Made by a program: the position numbers and the translations under genes. Shown piece by piece: positions 16,891-53,523 of a stretch of DNA of 64,000 nucleotides. Origin of the DNA: Tomocerus qinae (Eukaryota; Arthropoda; Collembola; Entomobryomorpha; Tomoceridae); the NCBI GenBank assembly GCA_020055645.1, contig CM034548.1, forward strand, positions 558,001 through 622,000. The letters run 5' to 3'. A model generated the notes under the pieces. The model did not search any database. It was not told the origin of the DNA and saw nothing but the letters and a program-made list of their open reading frames with translations. The first letter of the stretch is position 1. Every line of letters begins with the position of its first letter.

Positions 16891-16899
16891 TACGCGAAC
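16891..16899 (+). repeat. left 9-bp target-site duplication of the giant element
   Basis: TACGCGAAC, directly repeated at 53515-53523 just outside the other tip. A 10-bp reading (including the next A) is possible if the tip starts GGCGCG and one extra T is allowed at the right end. Confidence 0.85.
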
Positions 16900-17051
16900 A
16901 GGCGCGTTAAGTTAAACCCAAACCCAAACCCAGAATCCTGCCAAAGATGGGCTTCTCAAAATGCAGCATGAGGGGGGATGTCAGAACCTAATGCAAACCG
17001 TGAACCAAGTGTAGCCGAGGCTTCCACGAGGCTTCAAACACAAATCCCAAA
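16900..17051 (+). repeat. left unique terminal segment of the inverted repeat (152 bp)
   Basis: Matches the reverse complement of 53363-53514 with equal length and few differences. It contains three AAACCC units at 16914-16931, CTGCCAAAGATGGGCTTCTC and GAACCAAGTGTAGCC. As the outermost unique part, it is the likely transposase-recognition end. Confidence 0.88.
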
Positions 17052-18200
17052 GAGGTGCAGCATAAGTGGGAGACTTACGAAACATATTCCAAAATGCTTT
17101 CTACATGAGGGGGGATTTATAAGCTAATTCCAAACGTAGAACCAATGGTAAAAGAGGATTCCGACACAATTTCCAAACGGTGAAGCATAAGTGGGAGACT
17201 TCCAAAACATATGCCAAAATGCTTCAACATGAGGGGGGATTGCAGACCTAATTCCAAACGTTGTACCATTGGTAGAAGAGGATTCCAACGCAATTTCCAA
17301 AAGGGTGCAGCATAAGTGGGAGACTTCCAAAACATATGCCAAAACGCTTCAACATGAGGGGGGAATGCTGACCTAATTCCAAACGTTGTACCAATGGTAG
17401 AAGAGGATTCCAACGCAATTTCCAAAACGGTGCAGCATAAGTGGGAGACTTCCGAAACATATGCCAAAATGCTTTAACATGAGGGGGGAATGCAGACTTT
17501 ATTCCATACGTTGTACCAATGGTAGAAGAGGATTCCAACGCAATTTCCAAAACGGTGCAGCATAAGTGGGAGACTTCCGAAACATATGCCAAAATGCTTC
17601 AACATGAGGGGGATTGCAGACCTAATTCCAAACGTTGTACCAACGGTAGAAGAAGATTCAAACGCAATTTCCAAAACGGTGCAGCATAAGTGAGTGACTT
17701 CCGAAACATATGCCAAAATGCTTCAACATGAGGGGGGATTGCAGACCTAATTCCAAACGTTGTACCATTGGTAGAAGAGGATTCCAACGCAATTTCCAAA
17801 ACGGTGCAGCATAAGTGGGAGACTTCCAAAACATATGCCAAAATGCTTTAATATGAGGGGGGAATGCAGACTTTATTCCATACGTTGTACCAATGGTAGA
17901 AGAGGATTCCAACGCAATTTCCAAAACGGTGCAGCATAAATGGGAGACTTCCAAAACATATGCCAAAATGTTTCAACATGAGGGGGGATTGCAGACCTAA
18001 TTCCAAACGTTGTACCATTGGTAGAAGAGGGTTCCAACGCAATTTCCAAAACGGTGCAGCATAAGTGGGAGACTTCCAAAACATATGCCAAAATGCTTCA
18101 ACATGAGGGGGGAATGCTGACCTAATTCCAAACGTTGTACCAATGGTAGAAGAGGATTCCAACGCAATTTCCAAAACGGTGCAGCATAAGTGGGTGACTT
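17052..18200 (+). repeat. Sat-A array, left arm (~125-bp unit, about 9 copies)
   Basis: Unit: GTGCAGCATAAGTGGGAGAC, then AACATATGCCAAAATGCTTC, ACATGAGGGGGGATTGCAGA, ATTCCAAACGTTGTACCA and GTAGAAGAGGATTCCAACGC. Units follow at about 125 bp. The outermost unit next to the tip is the most divergent (TTTATAAGCTAATTCC). Translated frames across it are artefacts of the repeat. Confidence 0.93.
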
Positions 18201-18204
18201 CCGT

Positions 18205-21200
18205 TCAACGGTTATGATAATTGATTCTGATTAATTGTTGATTAGGGAATTTTTATTAGAAATTTCAGACATTTAGATAGTTCCAATCAAAAATTATCAA
18301 TGTTTTTGTTCAAGTGTTAAGAATAATCGGTACACCCTTAAGATTAAAATGTATAAACGACCGATAACCTTGCCATTCAAAGGTTACGATAATTGATTCT
18401 GATTAATTGTTGATTAGGGAAGTTTTAGCAAAAATTTCAGACATTTAAATAGTTCCAATCGAAAAATATTTAATTTTCTGTTCCAGCGTTACGAATAATC
18501 TGCATAAACTTAAGATCAAAAAAGTAAAAAGGACCGATAACCTTGCCATTCAAAGGTTACGATAATTGATTCTGATTAATTGTTAATTAGGGAATTTTTA
18601 GTAAAAATTTCAGACATTTAGACAGTTCCAATCAAAAATTATTAATGTTTTTGTTCAAGTGTTACGAATAATCGGTACACCCTTAAGATTAAAAAGTATA
18701 AACGACCGATAACCTTGCCATTCAAAGGTTATGATAATTGATTCCGATAAACCACTGATTGAGAATTACTTAATAAAAATTTCAGACATTTTGATGGTTC
18801 CAATCGAAAAATATTTAATTTTCTGTTCCAGCGTGACGACTAATCTGCATAAACTTAAGATCAAAAAAGTAAAAAGGGTTAACAACCTTGCCATTCAAAG
18901 GTCATGATAATTGATTCTGATAAACCACTGATTGAGGAATATTTAATAAAAATTTCAGACATTTTGATAGTTCCAATCGAAAAATATTTAATTTTCTGTT
19001 CCAGCGTTACGAGTAATCTGCATAAACTTAAGATCAAAAAAGTAAAAAGGACCGATAACCTTGCCATTCAAAGGTTACGATAATTGATTCTGATTAATTG
19101 TTGATTAGGGAATTTTTAGTAAAAATTTCAGACATTTAGATAGTTAAAATCAAAAATTGTCATTGTTTTTGTTCAAGTGTTGAGAATAATCGGTACACCC
19201 TTAAGATTAAAAAATATAAACGACCGATAACCTTGCCATTCAAAAGTCATGATAATTGATTCTGATAAACCAATGATTGAGAATTACTTAATAAAAATTT
19301 CAGACATTTTGATGGTTCCAATCGAAAAATATTTAATTTTCTGTTCCAGCGTGACGAATAATCTGCATAAACTTAAGATCAAAAAAGTAAAAAGGGCCAA
19401 CAACCTTGCCATTCAAAGGTCATGATAATTGATTCTGATAAACCACTGATTGAGGAATATTTAGTAAAAATTTCAGACATTTTGATAGTTCCAATCGAAA
19501 AATATTTAATTTTCTGTTCCAGCGTTACGAGTAATCTGCATAAACTTAAGATCAAAAAAGTAAAAAGGACCGATAACCTTGCCATTTAAAGGTTACGATA
19601 ATTGATTCTGATTAACTGTTGATTAGGGAATTTTTAGTAAAAATTTCAGACATTTAGACAGTTCCAATCAAAAATTAATAATGTTTTTGTTCAAGTGTTA
19701 CGAATAATAGGTACACCCTTAAGATTAAAAAGTATAAACGACCGATAACCTTGCCAATCAAAGGTTATGATAATTGATTCCGATAAACCACTGATTGAGG
19801 AACATTTAATTAAAAATTTCAGACATTTTGATGATTCCAATCGAAAAATATTTAATTTTCTGTTCCAGCGTGACGAATAATCTGCATAAACTTAAGATCA
19901 AAAAAGTAAAAAGGGCCAACAACCTTGCCAATCAAAGGTTATGATAATTGATTACGATAAACCACTGATTGAGGAACATTTAATTAAAAATTTCAGACAT
20001 TTTGATGGTTCCAATCGAAAAATATTTAATTTTCTGTTCCAGCGTTACGAGTAATCTGCATAAACTTAAGATCAAAAAAGTAAAAAGGACCGATAACCTT
20101 GCCATTCAAAGGATACGATAATTAATTCTGATTAACTGTTGATTAGGGAATTTTTAGTAAAAATTTCAGACATTTAGATAGTTCCAATCAAAAATTAATA
20201 ATGTTTTTGTTCAAGTGTTACGAATAATAGGTACACCCTTAAGATTAAAATGTATAAACGACCGATAACCTTGCCATTCAAAGGTTACGATAATTGATTC
20301 TGATTAATTGTTGATTAGGGAAGTTTTAGCAAAAATTTCAGACATTTAAATAGTTCCAATCGAAAAATATTTAATTTTCTGTTCCAGCGTTACGAATAAT
20401 CTGCATAAACTTAAGATCAAAAAAGTAAAAAGGACCGATAACCTTGCCATTCAAAGGTTACGATAATTGATTCTGATTAATTGTTAATTAGGGAATTTTT
20501 AGTAAAAATTTCAGACATTTAGACAGTTCCAATCAAAAATTATTAATGTTTTTGTTCAAGTGTTACGAATAATCGGTACACCCTTAAGATTAAAAAGTAT
20601 AAACGACCGATAACCTTGCCATTCAAAGGTTATGATAATTGATTCCGATAAACCACTGATTGAGAATTACTTAATAAAAATTTCAGACATTTTGATGGTT
20701 CCAATCGAAAAATATTTAATTTTCTGTTCCAGCGTGACGACTAATCTGCATAAACTTAAGATCAAAAAAGTAAAAAGGGTTAACAACCTTGCCATTCAAA
20801 GGTCATGATAATTGATTCTGATAAACCACTGATTGAGGAATATTTAATAAAAATTTCAGACATTTTGATAGTTCCAATCGAAAAATATTTAATTTTCTGT
20901 TCCAGCGTTACGAGTAATCTGCATAAACTTAAGATCAAAAAAGTAAAAGGACCGATAACCTTGCCATTCAAAGGTTACGATAATTGATTCTGATTAATTG
21001 TTGATTAGGGAATTTTTAGTAAAAATTTCAGACATTTAGATAGTTAAAATCAAAAATTGTCATTGTTTTTGTTCAAGTGTTGAGAATAATCGGTACACCC
21101 TTAAGATTAAAAAATATAAACGACCGATAACCTTGCCATTCAAAAGTCATGATAATTGATTCTGATAAACCAATGATTGAGAATTACTTAATAAAAATTT

Positions 21201-24200
21201 CAGACATTTTGATGGTTCCAATCGAAAAATATTTAATTTTCTGTTCCAGCGTGACGAATAATCTGCATAAACTTAAGATCAAAAAAGTAAAAAGGGCCAA
21301 CAACCTTGCCATTCAAAGGTCATGATAATTGATTCTGATAAACCACTGATTGAGGAATATTTAGTAAAAATTTCAGACATTTTGATAGTTCCAATCGAAA
21401 AATATTTAATTTTCTGTTCCAGCGTTACGAGTAATCTGCATAAACTTAAGATCAAAAAAGTAAAAAGGACCGATAACCTTGCCATTTAAAGGTTACGATA
21501 ATTGATTCTGATTAACTGTTGATTAGGGAATTTTTAGTAAAAATTTCAGACATTTAGACAGTTCCAATCAAAAATTAATAATGTTTTTGTTCAAGTGTTA
21601 CGAATAATAGGTACACCCTTAAGATTAAAAAGTATAAACGACCGATAACCTTGCCAATCAAAGGTTATGATAATTGATTCCGATAAACCACTGATTGAGG
21701 AACATTTAATTAAAAATTTCAGACATTTTGATGATTCCAATCGAAAAATATTTAATTTTCTGTTCCAGCGTGACGAATAATCTGCATAAACTTAAGATCA
21801 AAAAGTAAAAAAGGGCCAACAACCTTGCCAATCAAAGGTTATGATAATTGATTACGATAAACCACTGATTGAGGAACATTTAATTAAAAATTTCAGACAT
21901 TTTGATGGTTCCAATCGAAAAATATTTAATTTTCTGTTCCAGCGTTACGAGTAATCTGCATAAACTTAAGATCAAAAAAGTAAAAAGGACCGATAACCTT
22001 GCCATTCAAAGGATACGATAATTAATTCTGATTAACTGTTGATTAGGGAATTTTTAGTAAAAATTTCAGACATTTAGATAGTTCCAATCAAAAATTAATA
22101 ATGTTTTTGTTCAAGTGTTACGAATAATTAGGTACACCCTTAAGATTAAAAAGTATAAACGACCGATAACTCTTGCCATTCAAAGGTTATGATAATTGAT
22201 TCCGATAAACCACTGATTGAGAATTACTTAATAAAAATTTCAGACATTTTGATGGTTCCAATCGAAAAATATTTAATTTTCTGTTCCAGCGTGACGACTA
22301 ATCTGCATAAACTTAAGATCAAAAAAGTAAAAAGGGTTAACAACCTTGCCATTCAAAGGTCATGATAATTGATTCTCATAAACCACTGATTGAGGAATAT
22401 TTAATAAAAATTTCAGACATTTTGATAGTTCCAATCGAAAAATATTTAATTTTCTGTTCCAGCGTTACGAGTAATCTGCATAAACTTAAGATCAAAAAAA
22501 GTAAAAAGGACCGATAACCTTGCCATTTAAAGGTTACGATAATTGATTCTGATTAACTGTTGATTAGGGAATTTTTAGTAAAAATTTCAGACATTTAGAC
22601 AGTTCCAATCAAAAATTATTAATGTTTTTGTTCAAGTGTTACGAATAATCGGTACACCCTTAAGATTAAAAAGTATAAACGACCGATAACCTTGCCATTC
22701 AAAGGTTATGATAATTGATTACGATAAACCACTGATTGAGGAACATTTAATTAAAAATGCAGACATTTTGATGGTTCCAATCGAAAAATATTTAATTTTC
22801 TGTTCCAGCGTTACGAGTAATCTGCATAAACTTAAGATCAAAAAAGTAAAAAGGACCGATAACCTTGCCATTCAAAGGATACGATAATTGATTCTGATTA
22901 ACTGTTGATTAGGGAATTTTTAGTAAAAATTTCAGACATTTAGATAGTTCCAATCAAAAATTATTAATGTTTTTGTTCAAGTGTTACGAATAATAGGTAC
23001 ACCCTTAAGATTAAAAAGTATAAACGACCCATAACCTTGCCAATCAAAGGTTATGATAATTGATTCCGATAAACCACTGATTGAGGAACATTTAATTAAA
23101 AATTTCAGACATTTTGATGGTTCCAATCGAAAAATATTTAATTTTCTGTTCCAGCGTGACGAATAATCTGCATAAACTTAAGATCAAAAAAGTAAAAAGG
23201 GCCAACAACCTTGCCAATCAAAGGTTATGATAATTGATTACGATAAACCACTGATTGAGGAACATTTAATTAAAAATTTCAGACATTTTGATGGTTCCAA
23301 TCGAAAAATATTTAATTTTCTGTTCCAGCGTGACGAATAATCTGCATAAACTTAAGATCAAAAAAGTAAAAAGGGCCAACAACCTTGCCAATCAAAGGTT
23401 ATGATAATTGATTACGATAAACCACTGATTGAGGAACATTTAATTAAAAATTTCAGACATTTTGATGGTTCCAATCGAAAAATATTTAATTTTCTGTTCC
23501 AGCGTTACGAGTAATCTGCATAAACTTAAGATCAAAAAGTAAAAAGGACCGATAACCTTGCCATTCAAAGGATACGATAATTAATTCTGATTAACTGTTG
23601 ATTAGGGAATTTTTAGTAAAAATTTCAGACATTTAGATAGTTCCAATCAAAAATTAATAATGTTTTTGTTCAAGTGTTACGAATAATAGGTACACCCTTA
23701 AGATTAAAAAGTATAAACGACCGATAACCTTGCCATTCAAAGGTTATGATAATTGATTCCGATAAACCACTGATTGAGAATTACTTAATAAAAATTTCAG
23801 ACATTTTGATGGTTCCAATCGAAAAATATTTAATTTTCTGTTCCAGCGTGACGACTAATCTGCATAAACTTAAGATCAAAAAAGTAAAAAGGGGTTAACA
23901 ACCTTGCCATTCAAAGGTCATGATAATTGATTCTCATAAACCACTGATTGAGGAATATTTAATAAAAATTTCAGACATTTTGATAGTTCCAATCGAAAAA
24001 TATTTAATTTTCTGTTCCAGCGTTACGAGTAATCTGCATAAACTTAAGATCAAAAAAGTAAAAAGGACCGATAACCTTGCCATTTAAAGGTTACGATAAT
24101 TGATTCTGATTAACTGTTGATTAGGGAATTTTTAGTAAAAATTTCAGACATTTAGACAGTTCCAATCAAAAATTATTAATGTTTTTGTTCAAGTGTTACG

Positions 24201-27200
24201 AATAATCGGTACACCCTTAAGATTAAAAAGTATAAACGACCGATAACCTTGCCATTCAAAGGTTATGATAATTGATTACGATAAACCACTGATTGAGGAA
24301 CATTTAATTAAAAATGCAGACATTTTGATGGTTCCAATCGAAAAATATTTAATTTTCTGTTCCAGCGTTACGAGTAATCTGCATAAACTTAAGATCAAAA
24401 AAGTAAAAAGGACCGATAACCTTGCCATTCAAAGGATACGATAATTGATTCTGATTAACTGTTGATTAGGGAATTTTTAGTAAAAATTTCAGACATTTAG
24501 ATAGTTCCAATCAAAAATTATTAATGTTTTTGTTCAAGTGTTACGAATAATAGGTACACCCTTAAGATTAAAAAGTATAAACGACCCATAACCTTGCCAA
24601 TCAAAGGTTATGATAATTGATTCCGATAAACCACTGATTGAGGAACATTTAATTAAAAATTTCAGACATTTTGATGGTTCCAATCGAAAAATATTTAATT
24701 TTCTGTTCCAGCGTGACGAATAATCTGCATAAACTTAAGATCAAAAAAGTAAAAAGGGCCAACAACCTTGCCAATCAAAGGTTATGATAATTGATTACGA
24801 TAAACCACTGATTGAGGAACATTTAATTAAAAATTTCAGACATTTTGATGGTTCCAATCGAAAAATATTTAATTTTCTGTTCCAGCGTGACGAATAATCT
24901 GCATAAACTTAAGATCATAAAAGTAAAAAGGGCCAACAACCTTGCCAATCAAAGGTTATGATAATTGATTACGATAAACCACTGATTGAGGAACATTTAA
25001 TTAAAAATTTCAGACATTTTGATGGTTCCAATCGAAAAATATTTAATTTTCTGTTCCAGCGTTACGAGTAATCTGCATAAACTTAAGATCAAAAAGTAAA
25101 AAGGACCGATAACCTTGCCATTCAAAGGATACGATAATTAATTCTGATTAACTGTTGATTAGGGAATTTTTAGTAAAAATTTCAGACATTTAGATAGTTC
25201 CAATCAAAAATTAATAATGTTTTTGTTCAAGTGTTACGAATAATAGGTACACCCTTAAGATTAAAAAGTATAAACGACCGATAACCTTGCCATTCAAAGG
25301 TTATGATAATTGATTCCGATAAACCACTGATTGAGAATTACTTAATAAAAATTTCAGACATTTTGATGGTTCCAATCGAAAAATATTTAATTTTCTGTTC
25401 CAGCGTGACGACTAATCTGCATAAACTTAAGATCAAAAAAGTAAAAAAGGGTTAACAACCTTGCCATTCAAAGGTCATGATAATTGATTCTCATAAACCA
25501 CTGATTGAGGAATATTTAATAAAAATTTCAGACATTTTGATAGTTCCAATCGAAAAATATTTAATTTTCTGTTCCAGCGTTACGAGTAATCTGCATAAAC
25601 TTAAGATCAAAAAGTAAAAAGGACCGATAACCTTGCCATTTAAAGGTTACGATAATTGATTCTGATTAACTGTTGATTAGGGAATTTTTAGTAAAAATTT
25701 CAGACATTTAGACAGTTCCAATCAAAAATTATTAATGTTTTTGTTCAAGTGTTACGAATAATCGGTACACCCTTAAGATTAAAAAGTATAAACGACCGAT
25801 AACCTTGCCATTCAAAGGTTATGATAATTGATTACGATAAACCACTGATTGAGGAACATTTAATTAAAAATTTCAGACATTTTGATGGTTCCAATCGAAA
25901 AATATTTAATTTTCTGTTCCAGCGTTACGAGTAATCTGCATAAACTTAAGATCAAAAAAGTAAAAAGGACCGATAACCTTGCCATTTAAAGGTTACGATA
26001 ATTGATTCTGATTAACTGTTGATTAGGGAATTTTTAGTAAAAATTTCAGACATTTAGACAGTTCCAATCAAAAATTAATAATGTTTTTGTTCAAGTGTTA
26101 CGAATAATAGGTACACCCTTAAGATTAAAAAGTATAAACTTGACCGATAACCTTGCCATTCCAAAGGTTATGATAATTAGATTCCGATAAACCACTGATT
26201 GAGAATTACTTAATAAAAATTTCAGACATTTTGATGGTTCCAATCGAAAAATATTTAATTTTCTGTTCCAGCGTGACGACTAATCTGCATAAACTTAAGA
26301 TCAAAAAAGTAAAAAGGGTTAACAACCTTGCCATTCAAAGGTCATGATAATTGATTCTCATAAACCACTGATTGAGGAATATTTAATAAAAATTTCAGAC
26401 ATTTTGATAGTTCCAATCGAAAAATATTTAATTTTCTGTTCCAGCGTTACGAGTAATCTGCATAAACTTAAGATCAAAAAAGTAAAAAGGACCGATAACC
26501 TTGCCATTTAAAGGTTACGATAATTGATTCTGATTAACTGTTGATTAGGGAATTTTTAGTAAAAATTTCAGACATTTAGACAGTTCCAATCAAAAATTAT
26601 TAATGTTTTTGTTCAAGTGTTACGAATAATCGGTACACCCTTAAGATTAAAAAGTATAAACGACCGATAACCTTGCCATTCAAAGGTTATGATAATTGAT
26701 TACGATAAACCACTGATTGAGGAACATTTAATTAAAAATTTCAGACATTTTGATGGTTCCAATCGAAAAATATTTAATTTTCTGTTCCAGCGTTACGAGT
26801 AATCTGCATAAACTTAAGATCAAAAAAGTAAAAAGGACCGATAACCTTGCCATTTAAAGGTTACGATAATTGATTCTGATTAACTGTTGATTAGGGAATT
26901 TTTAGTAAAAATTTCAGACATTTAGACAGTTCCAATCAAAAATTAATAATGTTTTTGTTCAAGTGTTACGAATAATAGGTACACCCTTAAGATTAAAAAG
27001 TATAAACGACCGATAACCTTGCCATTCAAAGGTTATGATAATTGATTCCGATAAACCACTGATTGAGGAACATTTAATTAAAAATTTCAGACATTTTGAT
27101 GGTTCCAATCGAAAAATATTTAATTTTCTGTTCCAGCGTGACGAATAATCTGCATAAACTTAAGATCAAAAAAGTAAAAAGGGCCAACAACCTTGCCATT

Positions 27201-30200
27201 CAAAGGTCATGATAATTGATTCTGATAAACCACTGATTGAGGAATATTTAGTAAAAATTTCAGACATTTTGATAGTTCCAATCGAAAAATATTTAATTTT
27301 CTGTTCCAGCGTTACGAGTAATCTGCATAAACTTAAGATCAAAAAAGTAAAAAGGACCGATAACCTTGCCATTCAAAGGTTACGATAATTGATTCTGATT
27401 AATTGTTGATTAGGGAATTTTTAGTAAAAATTTCAGACATTTAGATAATTAAAATCAAAAATTGTCATTGTTTTTGTTCAAGTGTTGAGAATAATCGGTA
27501 TACCCTTAAGATTAAAAAGTATAAACGACCGATAACCTTGCCATTCAAAAGTCATGATAATTGATTCTGATAAACCAATGATTGAGGAATATTTAATAAA
27601 AATCTCAGACATTTAGATAGTTCCAATCAAAAATTATTAATGTTTTTGTTCAAGTGTTACGAATAATCGGTACACCCTTAAGATTAAAAAGTACAAACGA
27701 CCGATAACCTTGCCATTCAAAGGTTATGATAATTGATTCCGATAAAACCACTGATTGAGAATTATTTAATAAAAATTTCAGACATTTTGATGGTTCCAAT
27801 CGAAAAATATTTAATTTTCTGTTCCAGCATGACGAATAATCTGCATAAACTTAAGATCAAAAAAGTAAAAAGGGCCAACAACCTTGCCATTCAAAGCTCA
27901 TGATAATTGATTCTCATAAACCACTGATTGAGGAATATCTAATAAAAATTTCAGACATTTTGATGGTTCCAATCGAAAAATATTTAATTTTCTGTTCCAG
28001 CGTGACGAATAATCTGCATAAACTTAAGATCAAAAAAGTAAAAAGGGCCAACAACCTTGCCATTCAAAGCTCATGATAATTGATTCTCATAAACCACTGA
28101 TTGAGGAATATCTAATAAAAATTTCAGACATTTTGATGGTTCCAATCGAAAAATATTTAATTTTCTGTTCCAGCGTGACGAATAATCTGCATAAACTTAA
28201 GATCAAAAAAGTAAAAAGGGCCAACAACCTTGCCAATCAAAGGTTATGATAATTGATTACGATAAACCACTGATTGAGGAACATTTAATTAAAAATTTCA
28301 GACATTTTGATGGTTCCAATCGAAAAATATTTAATTTTCTGTTCCAGCGTTACGAGTAATCTGCATAAACTTAAGATCAAAAAAGTAAAAAGGACCGATA
28401 ACCTTGCCATTCAAAGGATACGATAATTAATTCTGATTAACTGTTGATTAGGGAATTTTTAGTAAAAATTTCAGACATTTAGATAGTTCCAATCAAAAAT
28501 TAATAATGTTTTTGTTCAAGTGTTACGAATAATAGGTACACCCTTAAGATTAAAAAGTATAAACGACCGATAACCTTGCCATTCAAAGGTTATGATAATT
28601 GATTCCGATAAACCACTGATTGAGAATTACTTAATAAAAATTTCAGACATTTTGATGGTTCCAATCGAAAAATATTTAATTTTCTGTTCCAGCGTGACGA
28701 CTAATCTGCATAAACTTAAGATCAAAAAAGTAAAAAGGGTTAACAACCTTGCCATTCAAAGGTCATGATAATTGATTCTCACAAACCACTGATTGAGGAA
28801 TATTTAATAAAAATTTCAGACATTTTGATAGTTCCAATCGAAAAATATTTAATTTTCTGTTCCAGCGTTACGAGTAATCTGCATAAACTTAAGATCAAAA
28901 AAGTAAAAAGGACCGATAACCTTGCCATTTAAAGGTTACGATAATTGATTCTGATTAACTGTTGATTAGGGAATTTTTAGTAAAAATTTCAGACATTTAG
29001 ACAGTTCCAATCAAAAATTATTAATGTTTTTGTTCAAGTGTTACGAATAATCGGTACACCCTTAAGATTAAAAAAGTATAAACGACCGATAACCTTGCCA
29101 TTCAAAGGTTATGATAATTGATTACGATAAACCACTGATTGAGGAACATTTAATTAAAAATGCAGACATTTTGATGGTTCCAATCGAAAAATATTTAATT
29201 TTCTGTTCCAGCGTTACGAGTAATCTGCATAAACTTAAGATCAAAAAAGTAAAAAGGACCGATAACCTTGCCATTCAAAGGATACGATAATTGATTCTGA
29301 TTAACTGTTGATTAGGGAATTTTTAGTAAAAATTTCAGACATTTAGATAGTTCCAATCAAAAATTATTAATGTTTTTGTTCAAGTGTTACGAATAATAGG
29401 TACACCCTTAAGATTAAAAAGTATAAACGACCGATAACCTTGCCAATCAAAGGTTATGATAATTGATTCCGATAAACCACTGATTGAGGAACATTTAATT
29501 AAAAATTTCAGACATTTTGATGGTTCCAATCGAAAAATATTTAATTTTCTGTTCCAGCGTGACGAATAATCTGCATAAACTTAAGATCAAAAAAGTAAAA
29601 AGGGCCAACAACCTTGCCAATCAAAGGTTATGATAATTGATTACGATAAACCACTGATTGAGGAACATTTAATTAAAAATTTCAGACATTTTGATGGTTC
29701 CAATCGAAAAATATTTAATTTTCTGTTCCAGCGTGACGAATAATCTGCATAAACTTAAGATCAAAAAAGTAAAAAGGGCCAACAACCTTGCCAATCAAAG
29801 GTTATGATAATTGATTACGATAAACCACTGATTGAGGAACATTTAATTAAAAATTTCAGACATTTTGATGGTTCCAATCGAAAAATATTTAATTTTCTGT
29901 TCCAGCGTTACGAGTAATCTGCATAAACTTAAGATCAAAAAAGTAAAAAGGACCGATAACCTTGCCATTCAAAGGATACGATAATTAATTCTGATTAACT
30001 GTTGATTAGGGAATTTTTAGTAAAAATTTCAGACATTTAGATAGTTCCAATCAAAAATTAATAATGTTTTTGTTCAAGTGTTACGAATAATAGGTACACC
30101 CTTAAGATTAAAAAGTATAAACGACCGATAACCTTGCCATTCAAAGGTTATGATAATTGATTCCGATAAACCACTGATTGAGAATTACTTAATAAAAATT

Positions 30201-40955: not shown

Positions 40956-41704
40956 CTGAAAATATAAGAAAATATCAGCAAAGCAATAGAATAGAAAGAA
41001 GCTTTAATTGTTGGATTTAAATGCGCGACGCTTGGTTAATTAATCATAATGCTAAGGAAGATTTTAAACACCCCAGCATAACATAAATAACAAAAATTTC
41101 AGCTTTATTTGTTTATCTTTTTTTTAAAACCTTTTAATTATTTCAATCTTACCCATCTCGGCCCTGTTTTTCGAACTCAATACATAACATTTAAGTTTAA
41201 AGTTTTAAAGTAAAATGACATTTCATCTACAAGTTTGTGAACAAAAAATTATCTAGGCTGCCTAAAGTACATCACCCTACTAAAGACGCTGACACAATGA
41301 AAGTGCACCCGCGAAAATTTCATACGGCTGCCACCAAAACCATTGCTATCCTTACTTTCATAGAATGGACGTAAAACGGGGCAATCAAATAAAAGTGTAT
41401 GCGATCGCTTTACGGTGAGAATATAAAGTAGGCATGCCGTAATTATTTTTCAAATTTTTAAAATAACTATTTTCTAGGACTATTAAAGACTTAAGATTAT
41501 CATTTTAAGGGACTTGAAAGGAGATCATGGTTAACATACCATCCTAAACCATAATGATCGATAACAAATAAAAAATATTCATTATGATAAATATTACCAT
41601 GAATAAATGTTATAAATTCAAAAATTCTTAAAATCCTAAACTACACAAATAGACGAATAAAAATACCAAGACATACGATAAAATGATACAAGATTAACAT
41701 CACA
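40956..41704 (-). other. core of giant element, 5' region of transposase gene
   Basis: Unique DNA up to the inner edge of the right arm, presumably holding the promoter and first exon. The stretch 41280-41440 is the least AT-rich part (GCGATCGC, GGTGCACTTTC on the minus strand). No start exon could be assigned. Confidence 0.4.
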
Positions 41705-44700
41705 ATGACATCCCGATTAATCGTAACACATGAACAGAAATTTAAACAATTTTTCATTGGAACCATCGAACTGTATGAAATTTTTATTAAAAATTCCCCA
41801 ATCAATGGTATATCAGGATCAATAATCATAACTTTTAATGGCAAGATTATCGACCCTATTTACTTTTTTGATCTTAAGTTTATGCAGATAATTCGTAACG
41901 CTGGAACAGAAAATTAAATATTTTTCGATTGGAACTATCAAAATGTCTGAAATTTTTATTAAAAATTCCCCAATCAATGGTATATCAGGATCAATAATCA
42001 TAACTTTTGAATGGCAAGGTTATCGGTCCTTTTTGCATTTGTGGCCTTAAGGGTGTATAGAATATTCGAAACATTAGAACAAAAAACTGAATAATTTTTG
42101 ATTGAAACTATCAACATGTCTGAAATTTTGTTTAAATATTCCACAATTACCAGTTAATCAGAATCAATTATCATAACTTTTGAATGGCAAGGTTATCGGT
42201 CCTTTTTACTTTTTTGATCCTAAGTTTATGCAAATAATTCGTAACGCTGGAACAGAAAATAAAATATTTTTCGATTGGAACTATCAAAATGTCTGAAATT
42301 TTAAATAAAAATTCCCCAATCAGGAGTATATAAGAATCAATAATCATTACTTATGAATGGCAAGGTTATCGGTCCTTTTTACATTTGTGATCTTAAGGGT
42401 GTATGGAATATTTAGAAAACTTGAAAAAAAACTAAATAACTTTTGATTGGAACCATAAAAATGTCTGAAATTTTTATTAAAGTTTTCCCATTCATTAGTA
42501 TATAAGAATCAGTAAGCATAACTTTTGAATGGCAAGGATATCGGTCCTTTTTACTTTTTTGATTATAAGAGTGTATCGACTATTCGTAACACTTGAACAA
42601 AAAATTAATAACTTTTGATTGGAATTATCAAAATGTCTGAAATTTTTATTAAAAATTCAAAAAATCAGTAATTAATCACAATCATTTATAATAACTTTTG
42701 AATGGCAAGGTAATCGGTCCGTTTTACTTTTTTGATCTTAATGGTATACCGATTAATCGTAACAAAAAATTAACAATTTTTAATTGGAACTATCAAAATG
42801 GCTGAAAGTTTTATTAAAGATTCCCTAATCATTAATATATCAGAATTATAAAGCATAACTTTTGAATAGCAAGGTTATCGGTAGTTTATACTTATTTGAT
42901 CTAAAGGATGTACCGATTACTCGTAACACTTGAACAAAAAATTAATAATTTTTGATTGGAACTATCAAAATGTTTGAAATTTTTATTAAAAATTCCTTAA
43001 TCAACAATTAATCAGAATCAATTATCATCACATTAGAATGGCAAGGTTATCGGTCCTTTTTGCTTTCTGATCTTAAGTCTTTGCAGATTATTCGTAACGC
43101 TGGAACAGAAAATTAAATATTTTTCGATTGGAACCATCAAAATGTCTGAAATTTTTTATTAAATATTCCTCAATCAGTGGTTTATCGGAATCATTTATCA
43201 TGACCTTTGAATGGCAAGGTTATCGATCGTTTATACTTTTGAATCTTAAGGGTGTACCGATTATTCGTAACACTTGAACAAAAACATTAATAATTTTTGA
43301 TTGGAATTATCAAAATGTCTGAAATTTTTATTAAAAATTCAAAAAATCAGTAATTAATCACAATCATTTATAATAACTTTTGAATGGCAAGGTAATCGGT
43401 CCGTTTTACTTTTTTGATCTTAATGGTATACCGATTAATCGTAACAAAAAATTAACAATTTTTAATTGGAACTATCAAAATGGCTGAAAGTTTTATTAAA
43501 GATTCCCTAATCATTAATATATCAGAATTATAAAGCATAACTTTTGAATAGCAAGGTTATCGGTAGTTTATACTTATTTGATCTAAAGGATGTACCGATT
43601 ACTCGTAACACTTGAACAAAAAATTAATAATTTTTGATTGGAACTATCAAAATGTTTGAAATTTTTATTAAAAATTCCTTAATCAACAATTAATCAGAAT
43701 CAATTATCATCACATTAGAATGGCAAGGTTATCGGTCTTTTTTGCTTTCTGATCTTAAGTCTTTGCAGATTATTCGTAACGCTGGAACAGAAAATTAAAT
43801 ATTTTTCGATTGAAACCATCAAAATGTCTGAAATTTTTTATTAAATATTCCTCAATCAGTGGTTTATCGGAATCATTTATCATGACCTTTGAATGGCAAG
43901 GTTATCGATCGTTTATACTTTTTAATCTTAAGGGTGTACCGATTATTCGTAACACTTGAACAAAAACATTAATAATTTTTGATTGGAACTATCTAACTGT
44001 CTGAAATTTTTACTAAAAATTCCCTAATCAACAATTAATCAGAATCAATTATCGTAACCTTTGAATGGCAAGGTTATCGGTCCTTTTTACTTTTTTGATC
44101 TTAAGTTTATGCAGATTACTCGTAACGCTGGAACAGAAAATTAAATATTTTTCGATTGGAACTATGAAAATGTCTGAGATTTTTATTAAATATTCCTCAA
44201 TCATTAGTTTATCAGAATCAATTATCATGACTTTTGAATGGCAAGGTTATCGGTCGTTTATACTTTTTAATCTTAAGGGTGTACCGATTATTCTCAACAC
44301 TTGAACAAAAACAATGACAATTTTTGATTTTAACTATCTAAATGTCTGAAATTTTTACTAAAAATTCCCTAATCAACAATTAATCAGAATCGAATATCGT
44401 AACCTTTGAATGGCAAGGTTATCGGTCCTTTTTACTTTTTTGATCTTAAGTTTATGCAGATTACTCGTAACGCTGGAACAGAAAATTAAATATTTTTCGA
44501 TTGGAACTATCAAAATGTCTGAAATTTTTATTAAATATTCCTCAATCAGTTGTTTATCAGAATCAATTATCATGACCTTTGAATGGCAAGGTTATTGGTC
44601 CTTTTTACTTCTTTGATCTTAAGTTTATGCAGATTATTCGTAACGCTGGAACAGAAAATTAAATATTTTTCGATTGGAACTATCAAAATGTCTGAGATTT

Positions 44701-47700
44701 TTATTAAATATTCCTCAATCATTAGTTTATCAGAATCAATTATCATGACTTTTGAATGGCAAGGTTATCGGTCGTTTATACTTTTTAATCTTAAGGGTGT
44801 ACCGATTATTCTCAACACTTGAACAAAAACAATGACAATTTTTGATTTTAACTATCTAAATGTCTGAAATTTTTACTAAAAATTCCCTAATCAACAATTA
44901 ATCAGAATCAATTATCGTAACCTTTGAATGGCAAGGTTATCGGTCCTTTTTACTTTTTTGATCTTAAGTTTATGCAGATTACTCGTAACGCTGGAACAGA
45001 AAATTAAATATTTTTCGATTGGAACTATCAAAATGTCTGAAATTTTTATTAAATATTCCTCAATCAGTGGTTTATGAGAATCAATTATCATGACCTTTGA
45101 ATGGCAAGGTTGTTGGCCCTTTTTACTTTTTTGATCTTAAGTTTATGCAGATTATTCGTCACGCTGGAACAGAAAATTAAATATTTTTCGATTGGAACCA
45201 TCAAAATGTCTGAAATTTTTATTAAATAATTCTCAATCAGTGGTTTTATCGGAATCAATTATCATAACCTTTGAATGGCAAGGTTATCGGTCGTTTGTAC
45301 TTTTGAATCTTAAGGGTGTACCGATTATTCGTAACACTTAAACAAAAACATTAATAATTTTTGATTGGAACTATCTAAATGTCTGAAATTTTTACTAAAA
45401 ATTCCCTAATCAAAAATTAATCAGAATCAATTATCGTAACCTTTGAATGGCAAGGTTATCGGTACTTTTTACTTTTTTGATCTTAAGTTTATGCAGATTA
45501 CTCGTAACGCTGGAACAGAAAATTAAATATTTTTCGATTGGAACTATCAAAATGTCTGAAATTTTTATTAAATATTCCTCAATCAGTTGTTTATCAGAAT
45601 CAATCATCATGACCTTTGAATGGCAAGATTATTGGTCCTTTTTACTTTTTTGATCTTAAGTTTATGCAGATTATTCGTCATGCTGGAACAGAAAATTAAA
45701 TATTTTTCGATTGGAACTATCAAAATGTCTGAAATTTTTATTAAATATTCCTCAATCAGTTGTTTATCAGAATCAATCATCATGACCTTTGAATGGCAAG
45801 ATTATTGGTCCTTTTTACTTTTTTGATCTTAAGTTTATGCAGATTATTCGTCATGCTGGAACAGAAAATTAAATATTTTTCGATTGGAACTATCAAAATG
45901 TCTGAAATTTTTATTAGATATTCCTCAATCAGTGGTTTATGAGAATCAATTATCATGACCTTTGAATGGCAAGGTTGTTGGCCCTTTTTACTTTTTTGAT
46001 CTTAAGTTTATGCAGATTATTCGTCATGCTGGAACAGAAAATTAAATATTTTTCGATTGGAACCATCAAAATGTCTGAAATTTTTATTAAATAATTCTCA
46101 ATCAGTGGTTTTATCGGAATTAATTATCATAACCTTTGAATGGCAAGGTTATCGGTCGTTTGTACTTTTGAATCTTAAGGGTGTACCGATTATTCGTAAC
46201 ACTTGAACAAAAACATTAATAATTTTTGATTGGAACTATCTAAATGTCTGAAATTTTTACTAAAAATTCCCTAATCAACAATTAATCAGAATCAATTATC
46301 GTAACCTTTGAATGGCAAGGTTATCGGTCCTTTTTACTTTTTTGATCTTAAGTTTATGCAGATTACTCGTAACGCTGGAACAGAAAATTAAATATTTTTC
46401 GATTGGAACTATCAAAATGTCTGAAATTTTTATTAAATATTCCTCAATCAGTTGTTTATCAGAATCAATTATCATGACCTTTGAATGGCAAGGTTATTGG
46501 TCCTTTTTACTTCTTTCATCTTAAGTTTATGCAGATTATTCGTAACGCTGGAACAGAAAATTAAATATTTTTCGATTGGAACTATCAAAATGTCTGAGAT
46601 TTTTATTAAATATTCCTCAATCATTAGTTTATCAGAATCAATTATCATGACTTTTGAATGGCAAGGTTATCGGTCGTTTATACTTTTTAATCTTAAGGGT
46701 GTACCGATTATTCTCAACACTTGAACAAAAACAATGACAATTTTTGATTTTAACTATCTAAATGTCTGAAATTTTTACTAAAAATTCCCTAATCAAAAAT
46801 TAATCAGAATCAATTATCGTAACCTTTGAATGGCAAGGTTATCGGTACTTTTTACTTTTTTGATCTTAAGTTTATGCAGATTACTCGTAACGCTGGAACA
46901 GAAAATTAAATATTTTTCGATTGGAACTATCAAAATGTCTGAAATTTTTATTAAATATTCCTCAATCAGTTGTTTATCAGAATCAATCATCATGACCTTT
47001 GAATGGCAAGATTATTGGTCCTTTTTACTTTTTTGATCTTAAGTTTATGCAGATTATTCGTCATGCTGGAACAGAAAATTAAATGTTTTTCGATTGGAAC
47101 TATCAAAATGTCTGAAATTTTTATTAGATATTCCTCAATCAGTGGTTTATGAGAATCAATTATCATGACCTTTGAATGGCAAGGTTGTTGGCCCTTTTTA
47201 CTTTTTTGATCTTAAGTTTATGCAGATTATTCGTCATGCTGGAACAGAAAATTAAATATTTTTCGATTGGAACCATCAAAATGTCTGAAATTTTTATTAA
47301 ATAATTCTCAATCAGTGGTTTTATCGGAATTAATTATCATAACCTTTGAATGGCAAGGTTATCGGTCGTTTGTACTTTTGAATCTTAAGGGTGTACCGAT
47401 TATTCGTAACACTTGAACAAAAACATTAATAATTTTTGATTGGAACTATCTAAATGTCTGAAATTTTTACTAAAAATTCCCTAATCAACAATTAATCAGA
47501 ATCAATTATCGTAACCTTTGAATGGCAAGGTTATCGGTACTTTTTACTTTTTTGATCTTAAGTTTATGCAGATTACTCGTAACGCTGGAACAGAAAATTA
47601 AATATTTTTCGATTGGAACTATCAAAATGTCTGAAATTTTTATTAAATATTCCTCAATCAGTTGTTTATCAGAATCAATCATCATGACCTTTGAATGGCA

Positions 47701-50700
47701 AGATTATTGGTCCTTTTTACTTTTTTGATCTTAAGTTTATGCAGATTACTCGTAACGCTGGAACAGAAAATTAAATATTTTTCGATTGGAACTATCAAAA
47801 TGTCTGAAATTTTTATTAGATATTCCTCAATCAGTGGTTTATGAGAATCAATTATCATGACCTTTGAATGGCAAGGTTGTTGGCCCTTTTTACTTTTTTG
47901 ATCTTAAGTTTATGCAGATTATTCGTCACGCTGGAACAGAAAATTAAATATTTTTCGATTGGAACCATCAAAATGTCTGAAATTTTTATTAAATAATTCT
48001 CAATCAGTGGTTTTATCGGAATCAATTATCATAACCTTTGAATGGCAAGGTTATCGGTCGTTTGTACTTTTGAATCTTAAGGGTGTACCGATTATTCGTA
48101 ACACTTGAACAAAAACATTAATAATTTTTGATTGGAACTATCTAAATGTCTGAAATTTTTACTAAAAATTCCCTAATCAACAATTAATCAGAATCAATTA
48201 TCGTATTCTTTGAATGGCAAGGTTATCGGTACTTTTTACTTTTTTGATCTTAAGTTTATGCAGATTACTCGTAACGCTGGAACAGAAAATTAAATATTTT
48301 TCGATTGGAACTATCAAAATGTCTGAAATTTTTATTAAATATTCCTCAATCAGTTGTTTATCAGAATCAATCATCATGACCTTTGAATGGCAAGGTTATT
48401 GGTCCTTTTTACTTTTTTGATCTTAAGTTTATGCAGATTATTCGTAACGCTGGAACAGAAAATTAAATATTTTTCGATTGGAACTATCAAAATGTCTGAA
48501 ATTTTTATTAGATATTCCTCAATCAGTGGTTTATGAGAATCAATTATCATGACCTTTGAATGGCAAGGTTGTTGGCCCTTTTTACTTTTTTGATCTTAAG
48601 TTTATGCAGATTATTCGTCATGCTGGAACAGAAAATTAAATATTTTTCGATTGGAACCATCAAAATGTCTGAAATTTTTATTAAATAATTCTCAATCAGT
48701 GGTTTTATCGGAATCAATTATCATAACCATTGAATGGCAAGGTTATCGGTCGTTTGTACTTTTGAATCTTAAGGGTGTACCGATTATTCGTAACACTTGA
48801 ACAAAAACATTAATAATTTTTGATTGGAACTATCTAAATGTCTGAAATTTTTACTAGAAATTTCCTAATCAACAATTAATCAGAATCAATTATCGTAACC
48901 TTTGAATGGCAAGGTTATCGGTACTTTTTACTTTTTTGATCTTAAGTTTATGCAGATTACTCGTAACGCTGGAACAGAAAATTAAATATTTTTCGATTGG
49001 AACTATCAAAATGTCTGAAATTTTTATTAAATATTCCTCAATCAGTTGTTTATCAGAATCAATCATCATGACCTTTGAATGGCAAGATTATTGGTCCTTT
49101 TTACTTTTTTGATCTTAAGTTTATGCAGATTATTCGTAACGCTGGAACAGAAAATTAAATATTTTTCGATTGGAACTATCAAAATGTCTGAAATTTTTAT
49201 TAGATATTCGTCAATCAGTGGTTTATGAGAATCAATTATCATGACCTTTGAATGGCAAGGTTGTTGGCCCTTTTTACTTTTTTGATCTTAAGTTTATGCA
49301 GATTATTCGTCATGCTGGAACAGAAAATTAAATATTTTTCGATTGGAACCATCAAAATGTCTGAAATTTTTATTAAATAATTCTCAATCAGTGGTTTTAT
49401 CGGAATCAATTATCATAACCATTGAATGGCAAGGTTATTGGTCGTTTGTACTTTTGAATCTTAAGGGTGTACCGATTATTCGTAACACTTGAACAAAAAC
49501 ATTAATAATTTTTGATTGGAACTATCTAAATGTCTGAAATTTTTACTAAAAATTCCCTAATCAACAATTAATCAGAATCAATTATCGTAACCTTTGAATG
49601 GCAAGGTTATCGGTACTTTTTACTTTTTTGATCTTAAGTTTATGCAGATTACTCGTAACGCTGGAACAGAAAATTAAATATTTTTCGATTGGAACTATCA
49701 AAATGTCTGAAATTTTTATTAAATATTCCTCAATCAGTTGTTTATCAGAATCAATCATCATGACCTTTGAATGGCAAGATTATTGGTCCTTTTTACTTTT
49801 TTGATCTTAAGTTTATGCAGATTACTCGTAACGCTGGAACAGAAAATTAAATATTTTTCGATTGGAACTATCAAAATGTCTGAAATTTTTATTAGATATT
49901 CCTCAATCAGTGGTTTATGAGAATCAATTATCATGACCTTTGAATGGCAAGGTTGTTGGCCCTTTTTACTTTTTTGATCTTAAGTTTATGCAGATTATTC
50001 GTCATGCTGGAACAGAAAATTAAATATTTTTCGATTGGAACCATCAAAATGTCTGAAATTTTTATTAAATAATTCTCAATCAGTGGTTTTATCGGAATCA
50101 ATTATCATAACCTTTGAATGGCAAGGTTATCGGTCGTTTGTACTTTTGAATCTTAAGGGTGTACCGATTATTTGTAACACTTGAACAAAAACATTAACAA
50201 TTTTTGATTGGAATTATCTAAATGTCTGAAATTTTTACTAAAAATTCCCTAATCAACAATTAATCAGAATCAATTATCGTAACCTTTGAATGGCAAGGTT
50301 ATCGGTACTTTTTACTTTTTTGATCTTAAGTTTATGCAGATTACTCGTAACGCTGGAACAGAAAATTAAATATTTTTCGATTGGAACTATCAAAATGTCT
50401 GAAATTTTTATTAAATATTCCTCAATCAGTTGTTTATCAGAATCAATCATCATGACCTTTGAATGGCAAGATTATTGGTCCTTTTTACTTTTTTGATCTT
50501 AAGTTTATGCAGATTATTCGTAACGCTGGAACAGAAAATTAAATATTTTTCGATTGGAACTATCAAAATGTCTGAGATTTTTATTAAGTATTCCTCAATC
50601 ATTGGTTTATCAGAATCAATTATCATGACTTTTGAATGGCAAGGTTGTCGGTCGTTTATACTTTTTAATCTTAAGGGTGTACCGATTATTCTCAACACTT

Positions 50701-52350
50701 GAACAAAAACAATGACAATTTTTGATTTTAACTATCTAAATGTCTGAAATTTTTACTAAAAATTCCCTAATCAACAATTAATCAGAATCAATTATCGTAA
50801 CCTTTGAATGGCAAGGTTATCGGCCCTTTTTACTTTTTTGATCTTAAGTTTATGCAGATTACTCGTAACGCTGGAATAGAAAATTAAATATTTTTCGATT
50901 GGAACTATCAAAATGTCTGAAATTTTTATTAAATATTCCTCAATCAGTGGTTTATGAGAATCAATTATCATGACCTTTGAATGGCAAGGTTGTTGGCCCT
51001 TTTTACTTTTTTGATCTTAAGTTTATGCAGATTATTCGTCACGCTGGAACAGAAAATTAAATATTTTTCGATTGGAACCATCAAAATGTCTGAAATTTTT
51101 ATTAAATAATTCTCAATCAGTGGTTTTATCGGAATCAATTATCATAATTTTTGAATGGCAAGGTAATCGGTCGTTTGTACTTTTGAATCTTAAGGGTGTA
51201 CCGATTATTCGTAACACTTGAACAAAAACATTAATAATTTTTGATTGGAACTATCTAAATGTCTGAAATTTTTACTAAAAATTCCCTAATCAACAATTAA
51301 TCAGAATCAATTATCGTAACCTTTGAATGGCAAGGTTATCGGTACTTTTTACTTTTTTGATCTTAAGTTTATGCAGATTACTCGTAACGCTGGAACAGAA
51401 AATTAAATATTTTTCGATTGGAACTATCAAAATGTCTGAAATTTTTATTAAATATTCCTCAATCAGTTCTTTATCAGAATCAATCATCATGACCTTTGAA
51501 TGGCAAGGTTATTGGTCCTTTTTACTTTTTTGATCTTAAGTTTATGCAGATTATTCGTAACGCTGGAACAGAAAATTAAATATTTTTCGATTGGAACTAT
51601 CAAAATGTCTGAGATTTTTATTAAATATTCCTCAATCATTGGTTTATCAGAATCAATTATCATGACTTTTGAATGGCAAGGTAATCGGTCGTTTATACTT
51701 TTTAATCTTAAGGGTGTACCGATTATTCTCAACACTTGAACAAAAACAATGACAATTTTTGATTTTAACTATCTAAATGTCTGAAATTTTTACTAAAAAT
51801 TCCCTAATCAACAATTAATCAGAATCAATTATCGTAACCTTTGAATGGCAAGGTTATCGGTCCTTTTTACTTTTTTGATCTTAAGTTTATGCAGATTACT
51901 CGTAACGCTGGAACAGAAAATTAAATATTTTTGATTGGAACTATCTAAATGTCTGAAATTTTTACTAAAAATTCCCTAATCAACAATTAATCAGAATCAA
52001 TTATCGTAACCTTTGAATGGCAAGGTTATCGGTACTTTTTACTTTTTTGATCTTAAGTTTATGCAGATTACTCGTAACGCTGGAACAGAAAATTAAATAT
52101 TTTTCGATTGGAACTATCAAAATGTCTGAAATTTTTATTAAATATTCCTCAATCAGTTGTTTATCAGAATCAATTATCATGACCTTTGAATGGCAAGGTT
52201 GTTGGCCCTTTTTACTTTTTTGATCTTAAGTTTATGCAAATTATTCGTCACGCTGGAACAGAAAATTAAATATTTTTCGATTGGAACCATCAAAATGTCT
52301 GAAATTTTTATTAAATAATTCTCAATCAGTGGTTTTATCGGAATCAATTA
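41705..52350 (-). repeat. Sat-B array, right arm (~173-bp monomer, about 61 copies, 692-bp higher-order repeat)
   Basis: Same monomers as the left arm on the opposite strand. Homologous positions recur at 46830, 47522, 48214, 48906, 49598 and 50290: exactly 692 bp each, or 4 x 173. Each tetramer has three type-B monomers and one type-A monomer. Outside this run the spacings are 1037, 865 and 518 (6, 5 and 3 monomers). The inner edge (41820-43100) mirrors the diverged monomers of the left arm, and a block near 42620 is repeated near 43303. Confidence 0.96.
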
Positions 52351-53362
52351 GAGATTAGAGTCTAAATCTAATTGCGTTGGAACCCTCTTCTACGAATGGT
52401 ACAACGTTTGGAATTAGGTCTGCAATCCCCCCTCATGTTGAAGCATTTTGGTATATGTTTTGGAAGTCTACCACTTATGCTGCACCGTTTTGGACATTGC
52501 GTTGGTATCCTCTTCTACCATGGGTACAACGTTTGGAATTAGGTCTGCATTCCCCCCTCATGTTGAAGCATTTATGCATATGTTTTGGAAGTCTCCCACT
52601 TATGCTGCACCGTTTTGGAAATTGCGTTGGAATCCTCTTCTACCAATGGTACAACGTTTGGAATTAGGTCTGCAATCCCCCCTCATGTTGAAGCATTTTG
52701 GCATATGTTTCGGAAGTCACCCACTTATGCTGCACCGTTTTGGAAATTGCGTTGGAATCCTCTTCTACCATTGGTACAACTAATGGAATAAAGTCTGCAT
52801 TCCTCCCTCATGTTAAAGCATTTTGGCATATGTTTTGGAAGTCTCCCACTTATGCTGCACCGTTTTGGAAATTGCGTTTGAATCTTCTTCTACCGTTGGT
52901 ACAACGTTTGGAATTAGGTCTGCAATCCCCCTCATGTTGAAGCATTTTTGCATATGTTTCGGAAGTCTCCCACTTATGCTGCACCGTTTTGGAAATTGCG
53001 TTTGAATCTTCTTCTACCGTTGGTACAACGTTTGGAATTAGGTCTGCAATCCCCCCTCATGTTGAAGCATTTTGGCATATGTTTTGGAAGTCTCCCACTT
53101 ATGCTGCACCGTTTGGAAATTGTGTCGGAATCCTCTTTTACCATTGGTTCTACGTTTGGAATTAGCTTATAAATCCCCCCTCATGTAGAAAGCATTTTGG
53201 AATATGTTTCGTAAGTCTCCCACTTATGCTGCACCGTTTGGAAATTGTGTCGGAATCCTCTTTTACCATTGGTTCTACGTTTGGAATTAGCTTATAAATC
53301 CCCCCTCATGTAGAAAGCATTTTGGAATATGTTTCGTAAGTCTCCCACTTATGCTGCACCTC
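52351..53362 (-). repeat. Sat-A array, right arm (~125-bp unit, about 8 copies)
   Basis: Reverse complement of the left Sat-A array. The junction to Sat-B differs from the left side: AGAGATTAGAGTCTAAATCT intervenes here. The outermost variant unit (with TTTATAAGC on the minus strand) is present twice in tandem on this side but once on the left. Confidence 0.93.
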
Positions 53363-53514
53363 TTTGGGATTTGCTTTTGAAGCCTCGTGGAAGCCTCGGC
53401 TACACTTGGTTCACGGTTTGCATTAGGTTCTGATATCCCCCCTCATGCTGCATTTTGAGAAGCCCATCTTTGGCAGGATTCTGGGTTTGGGTTTGGGTTT
53501 AACTTAACGCGCCT
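53363..53514 (-). repeat. right unique terminal segment of the inverted repeat (152 bp)
   Basis: Inverse of 16900-17051, ending GGGTTTAACTTAACGCGCCT. The three GGGTTT units mirror the AAACCC units of the left tip. Confidence 0.88.
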
Positions 53515-53523
53515 TACGCGAAC
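53515..53523 (+). repeat. right 9-bp target-site duplication of the giant element
   Basis: TACGCGAAC, identical to 16891-16899 and immediately outside the right tip. Confidence 0.85.

Follow-up and report, generated by a model that had tools for sequence, protein, structure and literature searches.

A transposon family with giant satellite arms, probably Rehavkus-like, in the genome of Tomocerus qinae

How satellite DNA originates and spreads has long been asked, and among the seeds already proposed are foldback transposons, as in the case of Tetris and of the TCsat23 repeat in Rehavkus-1_TC (PMC4079207, PMC10218199); here and below, published systems are described from the portions of the cited papers that we consulted. 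A locus of the collembolan Tomocerus qinae raises the question whether satellite arrays can themselves travel as the arms of a transposon. The window analysed is a stretch of 64,000 nucleotides (GenBank assembly GCA_020055645.1, contig CM034548.1, positions 558,001 to 622,000; C3:558001-622000 in our contig numbering), in which an initial annotation had proposed one Mutator-like foldback transposon with satellite arms. Our results confirmed that positions 16900-53514 are one transposable element, with inverted tips, a 9-bp target-site duplication, mirrored layers and a central gene core. The data as a whole are best explained if it is, very probably, a copy of a low-copy, Rehavkus-like cut-and-paste family related to the Mutator-like elements (MULEs). 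This is a real transposon family of a known, little-studied group, found here in giant satellite-armed form.

The terminal sequence AGGCGCGTTAAGTTAAACCC had a single match in the window, at 16900 on the forward strand, and its reverse complement had a single match at 53495-53514. The 9-bp sequence TACGCGAAC was found in the window only at the two flanking positions given in Table 1, and the chance of a single 9-bp match is about 1e-5 at the base composition of the window. Tandem Repeats Finder recovered four tandem arrays in mirror order across the two arms, which are built from two different repeats, as had been claimed, namely a 125-bp and a 173-bp layer. The arms take up 29,325 of the 36,615 bp of the element, in agreement with the earlier figure of about 29 kb of 36.6 kb. 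The left arm aligned with the reverse complement of the right arm at 85.8% identity over 11.8 kb, and the same-strand control alignment of the two arms was empty, which bears out the foldback architecture.

Table 1. Features of the window element (copy A), in window coordinates.
Feature	Position	Strand	Method
Left target-site duplication, TACGCGAAC	16891..16899	none	
Left tip, 128 bp; inner part is a diverged 125-bp monomer	16900..17027	+	Local alignment
Left outer layer, 125-bp tandem repeat, 9.4 copies	17028..18202	+	Tandem Repeats Finder
Left inner layer, 173-bp satellite, 93.8 copies, lag peaks 5/9/14 monomers	18204..34424	+	
Core, 7.29 kb, 99.4% identical to the core of copy C	34425..41714	-	
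Third coding region, 569-aa frame: putative DDE CxxH and E part, then Peptidase_C48 (Ulp1)	35476..37185	-	
Second coding region, 392-aa frame: second PHD-finger half and N-terminal region	38063..39241	-	
First coding region, 281-aa frame, ends in first PHD-finger half	39653..40498	-	
Right inner layer, 173-bp satellite, inverted, 61.6 copies, lag peaks 4/8 monomers	41715..52350	-	
Right outer layer, 125-bp repeat, inverted, 8.1 copies	52370..53386	-	Tandem Repeats Finder
Right tip, inverted	53387..53514	-	
Right target-site duplication, TACGCGAAC	53515..53523	none	

The genome (334 Mb, 115 contigs) was searched with the window tip, and 36 matches were obtained (36/36 candidates scored). These were grouped into 11 inverted pairs and five single ends (G, I, J, O and P); the others were four inner repeats of copies M and F and five shorter or diverged fragments that stand outside the count, on C1 near 60.35, 76.66, 131.76 and 140.12 Mb and on C7 near 1.27 Mb. 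The pairs measure 36.6 kb (A, the window copy), 43.1 kb (B), 20.8 kb (C), 36.9 kb (D), 37.2 kb (E), 31.6 kb (F), 37.2 kb (H), 19.6 kb (K), 5.5 kb (L), 3.6 kb (M) and 20.8 kb (N). The tip of a second subfamily gave 48 matches, which included the same 27 ends and two more fragments, and added no pair among the 40 of 55 candidates scored. The tip is therefore not found only here, a possibility that the initial annotation had raised. An exact 9-bp duplication flanks eight of the 11 pairs (A, B, C, E, F, H, M and N), that is, eight of the nine in which both tips are complete, and crossed pairs gave 0/72 matches. Seven of these eight copies measure 20.8-43.1 kb, across both subfamilies. Copy E lies within a 37-bp tandem repeat. 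When its flanks were joined with one duplication, they aligned without gaps at 84.5% over 110 bp to the uninterrupted repeat in the right flank, and on this alignment the repeat around copy E is an in-place view of its empty site.

The ends of the copies share one plan. All 27 matched the first 1.65 kb of the left end of the window element (one being that end itself), with the right end of K matching at 70%. The 173-174-bp satellite was reached by 24/27 ends within the ~1.6 kb examined; no 173-type satellite was seen within this distance of the F left, M right and P ends, and a 173-type match was found deeper inside P. The inner part of the tip is related to the 125-bp monomer (local score 79, against 38 for the best of 300 mononucleotide shuffles). 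Two subfamilies can be told apart by their tips, by their satellites (the F1 or the N type, with the M type in K and M) and by their transposases, which are ~52% identical in amino acids. They have the plan in common, and the inner-satellite consensus contains a CTTGCCATTCAA box in both. Core identity is 99.4% for A-C, 98.7% for A-B, 99.0% for E-G and 92.9% for E-F; judged on the cores, the first three relationships are recent and the last is older. The family is real, in low copy, with closely related copies.

Satellites are hard to assemble, and it has to be considered that two inverted satellite arrays were misjoined, as the first exact satellite match of C34 lies at base 460 and the last match of C7 and the first of C88 are less than 500 bases away from a contig end. 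We rejected this explanation as extremely improbable. The layer order repeats in copies that differ in their flanks and in their 9-bp duplications, and the two arms of A, like those of N, are only ~85% alike, so that this ~15% divergence does not agree with a folded-back read.

Contig C1, which makes up 42% of the assembly, carries 12 of the 14 copies counted on large contigs (binomial P 0.001), or 12/16 copies when two small contigs are counted too (P 0.008); C1 might be a sex chromosome. Two candidate features were dropped. An ATG-led stretch just left of the window element had looked exonic and had suggested insertion into a host coding exon; two frames span the joined flanks, with stops within ~10-20 codons on the right side, and the reading was dropped although no family search was made with these frames. 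Mixed F1/F2 tips in copy M were resolved by alignment to an F2-like end with a 6-bp deletion.

Three long coding regions, all on the minus strand, lie in the core of the window element, and a PHD finger is split across two of them. The start of the 392-aa frame of the second region is probably intron. When the PHD halves of the window copy were joined by hand, PF00628 matched with an E value of 3.1e-6 (27.6 bits, cut-off 24), while an earlier mixed query had scored 22.4 bits, below this cut-off. The last coding region closes with a Peptidase_C48 domain (E 1.6e-10 in the window copy, 4.5e-12 in copy E). This Ulp1 domain aligns to SENP1 (1.2e-6), and the HW, DS, Q and CG positions, which we take to be catalytic, are kept. 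In copies E, F and G, a putative DDE/CxxH motif was seen in the frames (DSTGS, DFSF, CSAH, NAVESYF). The joined D-D-E region of copy E gave no match to PF10551, and its best DDE-type match was to DDE_3 at 0.051, below the cut-off. In E and F, the frames run without a stop for 197/202, 476/472 and 594/595 aa, and the last coding region has one stop in G and three in D. In the window copy, the frame of the second region is interrupted twice, once ahead of the first putative catalytic D and once more between this D and the next; therefore, this copy is probably non-autonomous. Its putative DDE domain is also divided by an intron. No transposase match was found in N, K, L and M. Elsewhere in the genome, more distantly related transposase sequences (22-37% identity) were also seen (L042, L044, L045, L047, L069, L072), one of them ~15 kb from copy G. 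Possible relatives on viral contigs were dropped, as tblastn confirmed none of nine pattern-matched stretches.

The group to which the element belongs was judged from published descriptions, which make it a probable Rehavkus-like member. In Rehavkus as described, 9 bp of the target are duplicated, the protein has a PHD finger, a minisatellite precedes the 3' terminal inverted repeat (TIR), and the TIR is 26-400 bp long (PMC6446971). The group has been placed beside or inside the MULEs (PMC6446971, PMC4455052) and is now put in MuDR by Repbase (PMC4455052). In our family, the duplications and the PHD finger of the hand-joined transposase pieces agree with this description, and the mini-satellite adjoins the terminal inverted repeat, here on both sides. 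The 128-bp tip falls within the TIR range, and the whole inverted arms exceed it. Rehavkus-1_TC of Tribolium castaneum, a 9.5-kb DNA transposon, also exceeds it with its inverted termini, which contain the 164-bp TCsat23 satellite, mostly as 5 and 8 monomers (PMC10218199). The Ulp1 domain is present here and is unmentioned in the Rehavkus descriptions examined.

The initial annotation had instead compared the element with FB-NOF. The FB-NOF elements of Drosophila have tandem-repeat arms and 9-bp duplications, with shorter repeats and kb-scale arms, unlike those of the window family. The likeness holds for the 9-bp duplication and for the foldback plan, that is, long inverted arms of tandem repeats with variable length, which is the trait of the foldback class. 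The PHD finger and the terminal satellite agree with the description of Rehavkus (PMC6446971), which fits the element better. PF10551 is also without a match in the element cores. An FB-NOF type MULE foldback, a comparison made here on general traits, is improbable.

The family resembles Rehavkus-1_TC in that both are DNA transposons whose inverted termini carry a satellite. It differs in size, as most paired copies here measure about 20-43 kb and the fully read arms (A, C and N) hold about 30-94 monomers each, and in its two repeat layers, its higher-order repeats and a core-less satellite palindrome. Tetris of Drosophila virilis is also a foldback element, with TIR tandem repeats of ~220 bp that have a 37-bp stretch in common with the outer TIR, and with duplications of 8-10 bp; it has seeded a satellite, but its TIRs reach at most 1,735 bp and it is without apparent coding capacity (PMC4079207). 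Tm1 of Meloidogyne is a Mutator/Foldback element with composite TIRs of variable length, 9-bp duplications and members with and without transposase, while its complete examples are 1.1 and 2.6 kb long, with 13-15-bp repeats and a Phantom-like FLYWCH-MULE transposase (PMC3169594). Galileo has foldback-like TIR repeats with extra transposase-binding sites, and its transposase is of the P-element superfamily (PMC3688188). In a 2026 survey, the arthropod MULEs form a related superfamily to which Rehavkus is the outgroup, with complete elements of 1.4-10.0 kb and TIRs of 13-1193 bp (PMC13359780); the elements described here are several times longer than this upper length. In the literature searched, and within the portions consulted, no cut-and-paste element with satellite arms this large was found.

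Whether these arms move at their present length is the next question. The inner arrays measure 16.2+10.6 kb in A and 5.3+5.7 kb in C, a ~2.4-fold difference in total, despite cores that are 99.4% identical; the left 1.65 kb of A matches the right end of C at 99.3%. A partner of at least 99% identity was found in the same arm for 72/92 monomers of the A left arm and in the other arm for 17/92. The counts were 8/29 and 12/27 in the two arms of C, with none in the other arm, and 16/40 and 27/61 in those of N, with 3/40 and 2/61 in the other arm. In the A left arm, a block of 20 monomers recurs 28 monomers away. Besides the lag-identity peaks of A given in Table 1, both arms of N have a peak at 9 monomers. 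This monomer pattern fits unequal exchange mainly within arms, with some sharing between the arms of A.

It is a real possibility, which we hold as tentative, that short-armed elements of ~10 kb, like Rehavkus-1_TC, transpose and that the arms expand after insertion, in which case long arrays never move. The ~2.4-fold difference between A and C and the large block duplications within the A arms agree with it, as does the weak, threshold-dependent collinearity of the A and C arms. It was also reported that transposition efficacy falls above 6 kb of cargo, yet cargoes of 100-200 kb were mobilised (PMC6431247). On the other hand, seven of the eight copies with duplications are at least 20.8 kb long today, in both subfamilies. 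Homologous arms of A and C are also more collinear at 98.5% identity, with 15/27 and 12/29 monomers in order (maxima of 100 shuffles 13 and 11), than non-homologous arms, with 8/29 and 5/27 (shuffle maxima 9 and 5). At 97%, the homologous arms gave 22/27 (shuffle maximum 22) and 20/29 (18), and the non-homologous arms 18/29 (18) and 14/27 (14). It is likewise possible, and equally tentative, that arrays of 10-20 kb of satellite act as mobile units, moved by cut-and-paste as transposon arms.

Copy N (20,836 bp) is of particular interest here. Read inward from either end, it has tip, 125-bp layer and satellite, and its centre consists of 40.5 copies of the 174-bp satellite, four bases and 62.2 inverted copies. 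Neither the core of A nor that of E was matched in it, and it is flanked by an exact 9-bp duplication. Either a satellite-only derivative was transposed, or the core was lost after insertion.

A satellite census was made with exact patterns and whole counts. The N-type pattern had 208 matches at up to two mismatches (reversed control 0). All 81 exact matches lie in copies E, N, G, L and J; 100 of the 208 were listed, including these 81, and the other 127, with one or two mismatches, are listed in part. The left arm of G was assigned by position and orientation, because no left tip of this copy was located. A pattern common to the F1 and M types had 112 exact matches, and of the 100 listed, 69 are in copies and 31 on C7. 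The M-type pattern (92/92 listed) was found in K (19), M (1), C1 (1, near the contig end, beside a tip fragment), C7 (53) and C88 (18). The link between transposon and satellite birth drawn by the initial annotation is thus supported in part, by the exact N-type matches, while 71/92 exact M-type matches lie on the small contigs C7 and C88, which we infer to be unplaced, in arrays without a recognised complete tip (C7:1294100-1339899 and C88:22-7421; L079, L080).

These arrays and the higher-order repeats could also mean that a pre-existing centromere-like satellite was captured by the transposon and was not born inside it. We consider this unlikely, given the location of every exact N-type match within element copies. 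On C7 (1.34 Mb), moreover, the satellite reverses its orientation near 1,320 kb, with a tip-like fragment ~54 kb upstream of this flip, and the inverted arrays together with the fragment suggest descent from an element. The right-hand array has a regular higher-order period of ~2.07 kb and extends to less than 0.5 kb from the contig end. The C7/C88 arrays look like satellite that outgrew an element of the family.

Several smaller observations concern the same repeats. One C7 array passes into a 22-bp minisatellite at 1309.8 kb, and more F1/M-type matches lie at C7:64203-67278 and 89362-90438, where the spacing is often ~292 bp in place of 173 bp. A 40-bp tandem repeat at 5610-5893 and 6455-7684 of the window is, by eye, like the repeat that flanks the C7 tip fragment (L079), which is present on both sides of that fragment in opposite orientations. 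DNA searches with the 173-bp and 125-bp units were listed for 150/401 and 150/267 matches, with candidates scored in part; among those listed for the 125-bp unit, C1:29944912-29945350 and C7:477524-477772 lie outside the copies and are probably fragments.

Taken together, we propose for this Rehavkus-like family that an element end consists of the conserved tip, a tip-like 125-bp array and a long satellite array, with a spliced gene for a PHD-DDE-Ulp1 protein predicted between the two arms. The transposase would bind the tip and the tip-like 125-bp units and cut with a 9-bp stagger, and binding to such repeats may be supported by analogy with the TIR sites of Galileo (PMC3688188). The inner satellite itself would be unneeded for recognition, and its gains and losses would come mainly from unequal exchange within arms. 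Copies whose gene is broken (such as the window copy) or in which none was found (N, K, L and M) would be moved in trans by open-frame copies such as E and F, and large arrays would become dispersed as transposon parts.

Several points weigh against this proposal. Three of the 11 pairs (D, L and K) are without a duplication; D and L are unable to show one because the right tip of D and the left tip of L are cut, while K has flanks unlike each other and an odd right tip. The placement with Rehavkus was made on described traits. The D...D...CxxH...E motif was identified by eye. PF10551, the MULE profile, was found in no element core, with 89 genome matches at E<=1 compared by eye; the MULE-type transposase of the initial annotation is thus an indirect call, and what was found are PHD and C48/Ulp1 domains. 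The integrity of the E and F genes is read from stop-free frames, and the first PHD half was read in the window copy. In the A right arm, partners of at least 99% identity were found in the own arm for 36/60 monomers and in the other arm for 20/60, so that exchange is not solely within arms. The collinearity signal between A and C is modest and changes with the threshold, and the arms may have lengthened after insertion. The family is known here from its genome sequence.

The family is valuable because it appears to present a whole series within one genome, from the short-armed M (3.6 kb) through the long-armed copies with a gene (A-F and H) and the core-less palindrome N to the arrays without recognised complete tips on C7/C88, with duplications marking eight insertions. 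The authors of Tetris noted that larger arrays may have disrupted transposition (PMC4079207), and this suggestion becomes testable here. The Ulp1 domain, of SUMO-protease type, in the putative transposase also raises a testable question of host interaction. If mobile arrays are real, copy N would be a transposing satellite array, C7/C88 an array that outgrew its element, and satellite dispersal a transposition process that could be traced by target-site duplications.

Other features of the window lie outside the element. The clearest host-gene piece among the frames searched is an F-box exon at 1042-1443 (+; F-box-like, 1.1e-13). A 25-bp minisatellite array at 3922-5326 contains overlapping repeat-derived open frames. 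A transposase fragment at 60853-61350 (+) has a DDE_1 domain (1.6e-6) and is presumably pogo/Tigger-like. Short GTTACCGTT-type repeats occur in both orientations at 13583-14232, and the TTAGG repeat is common in the genome, with 325 exact matches against 0 in the control.

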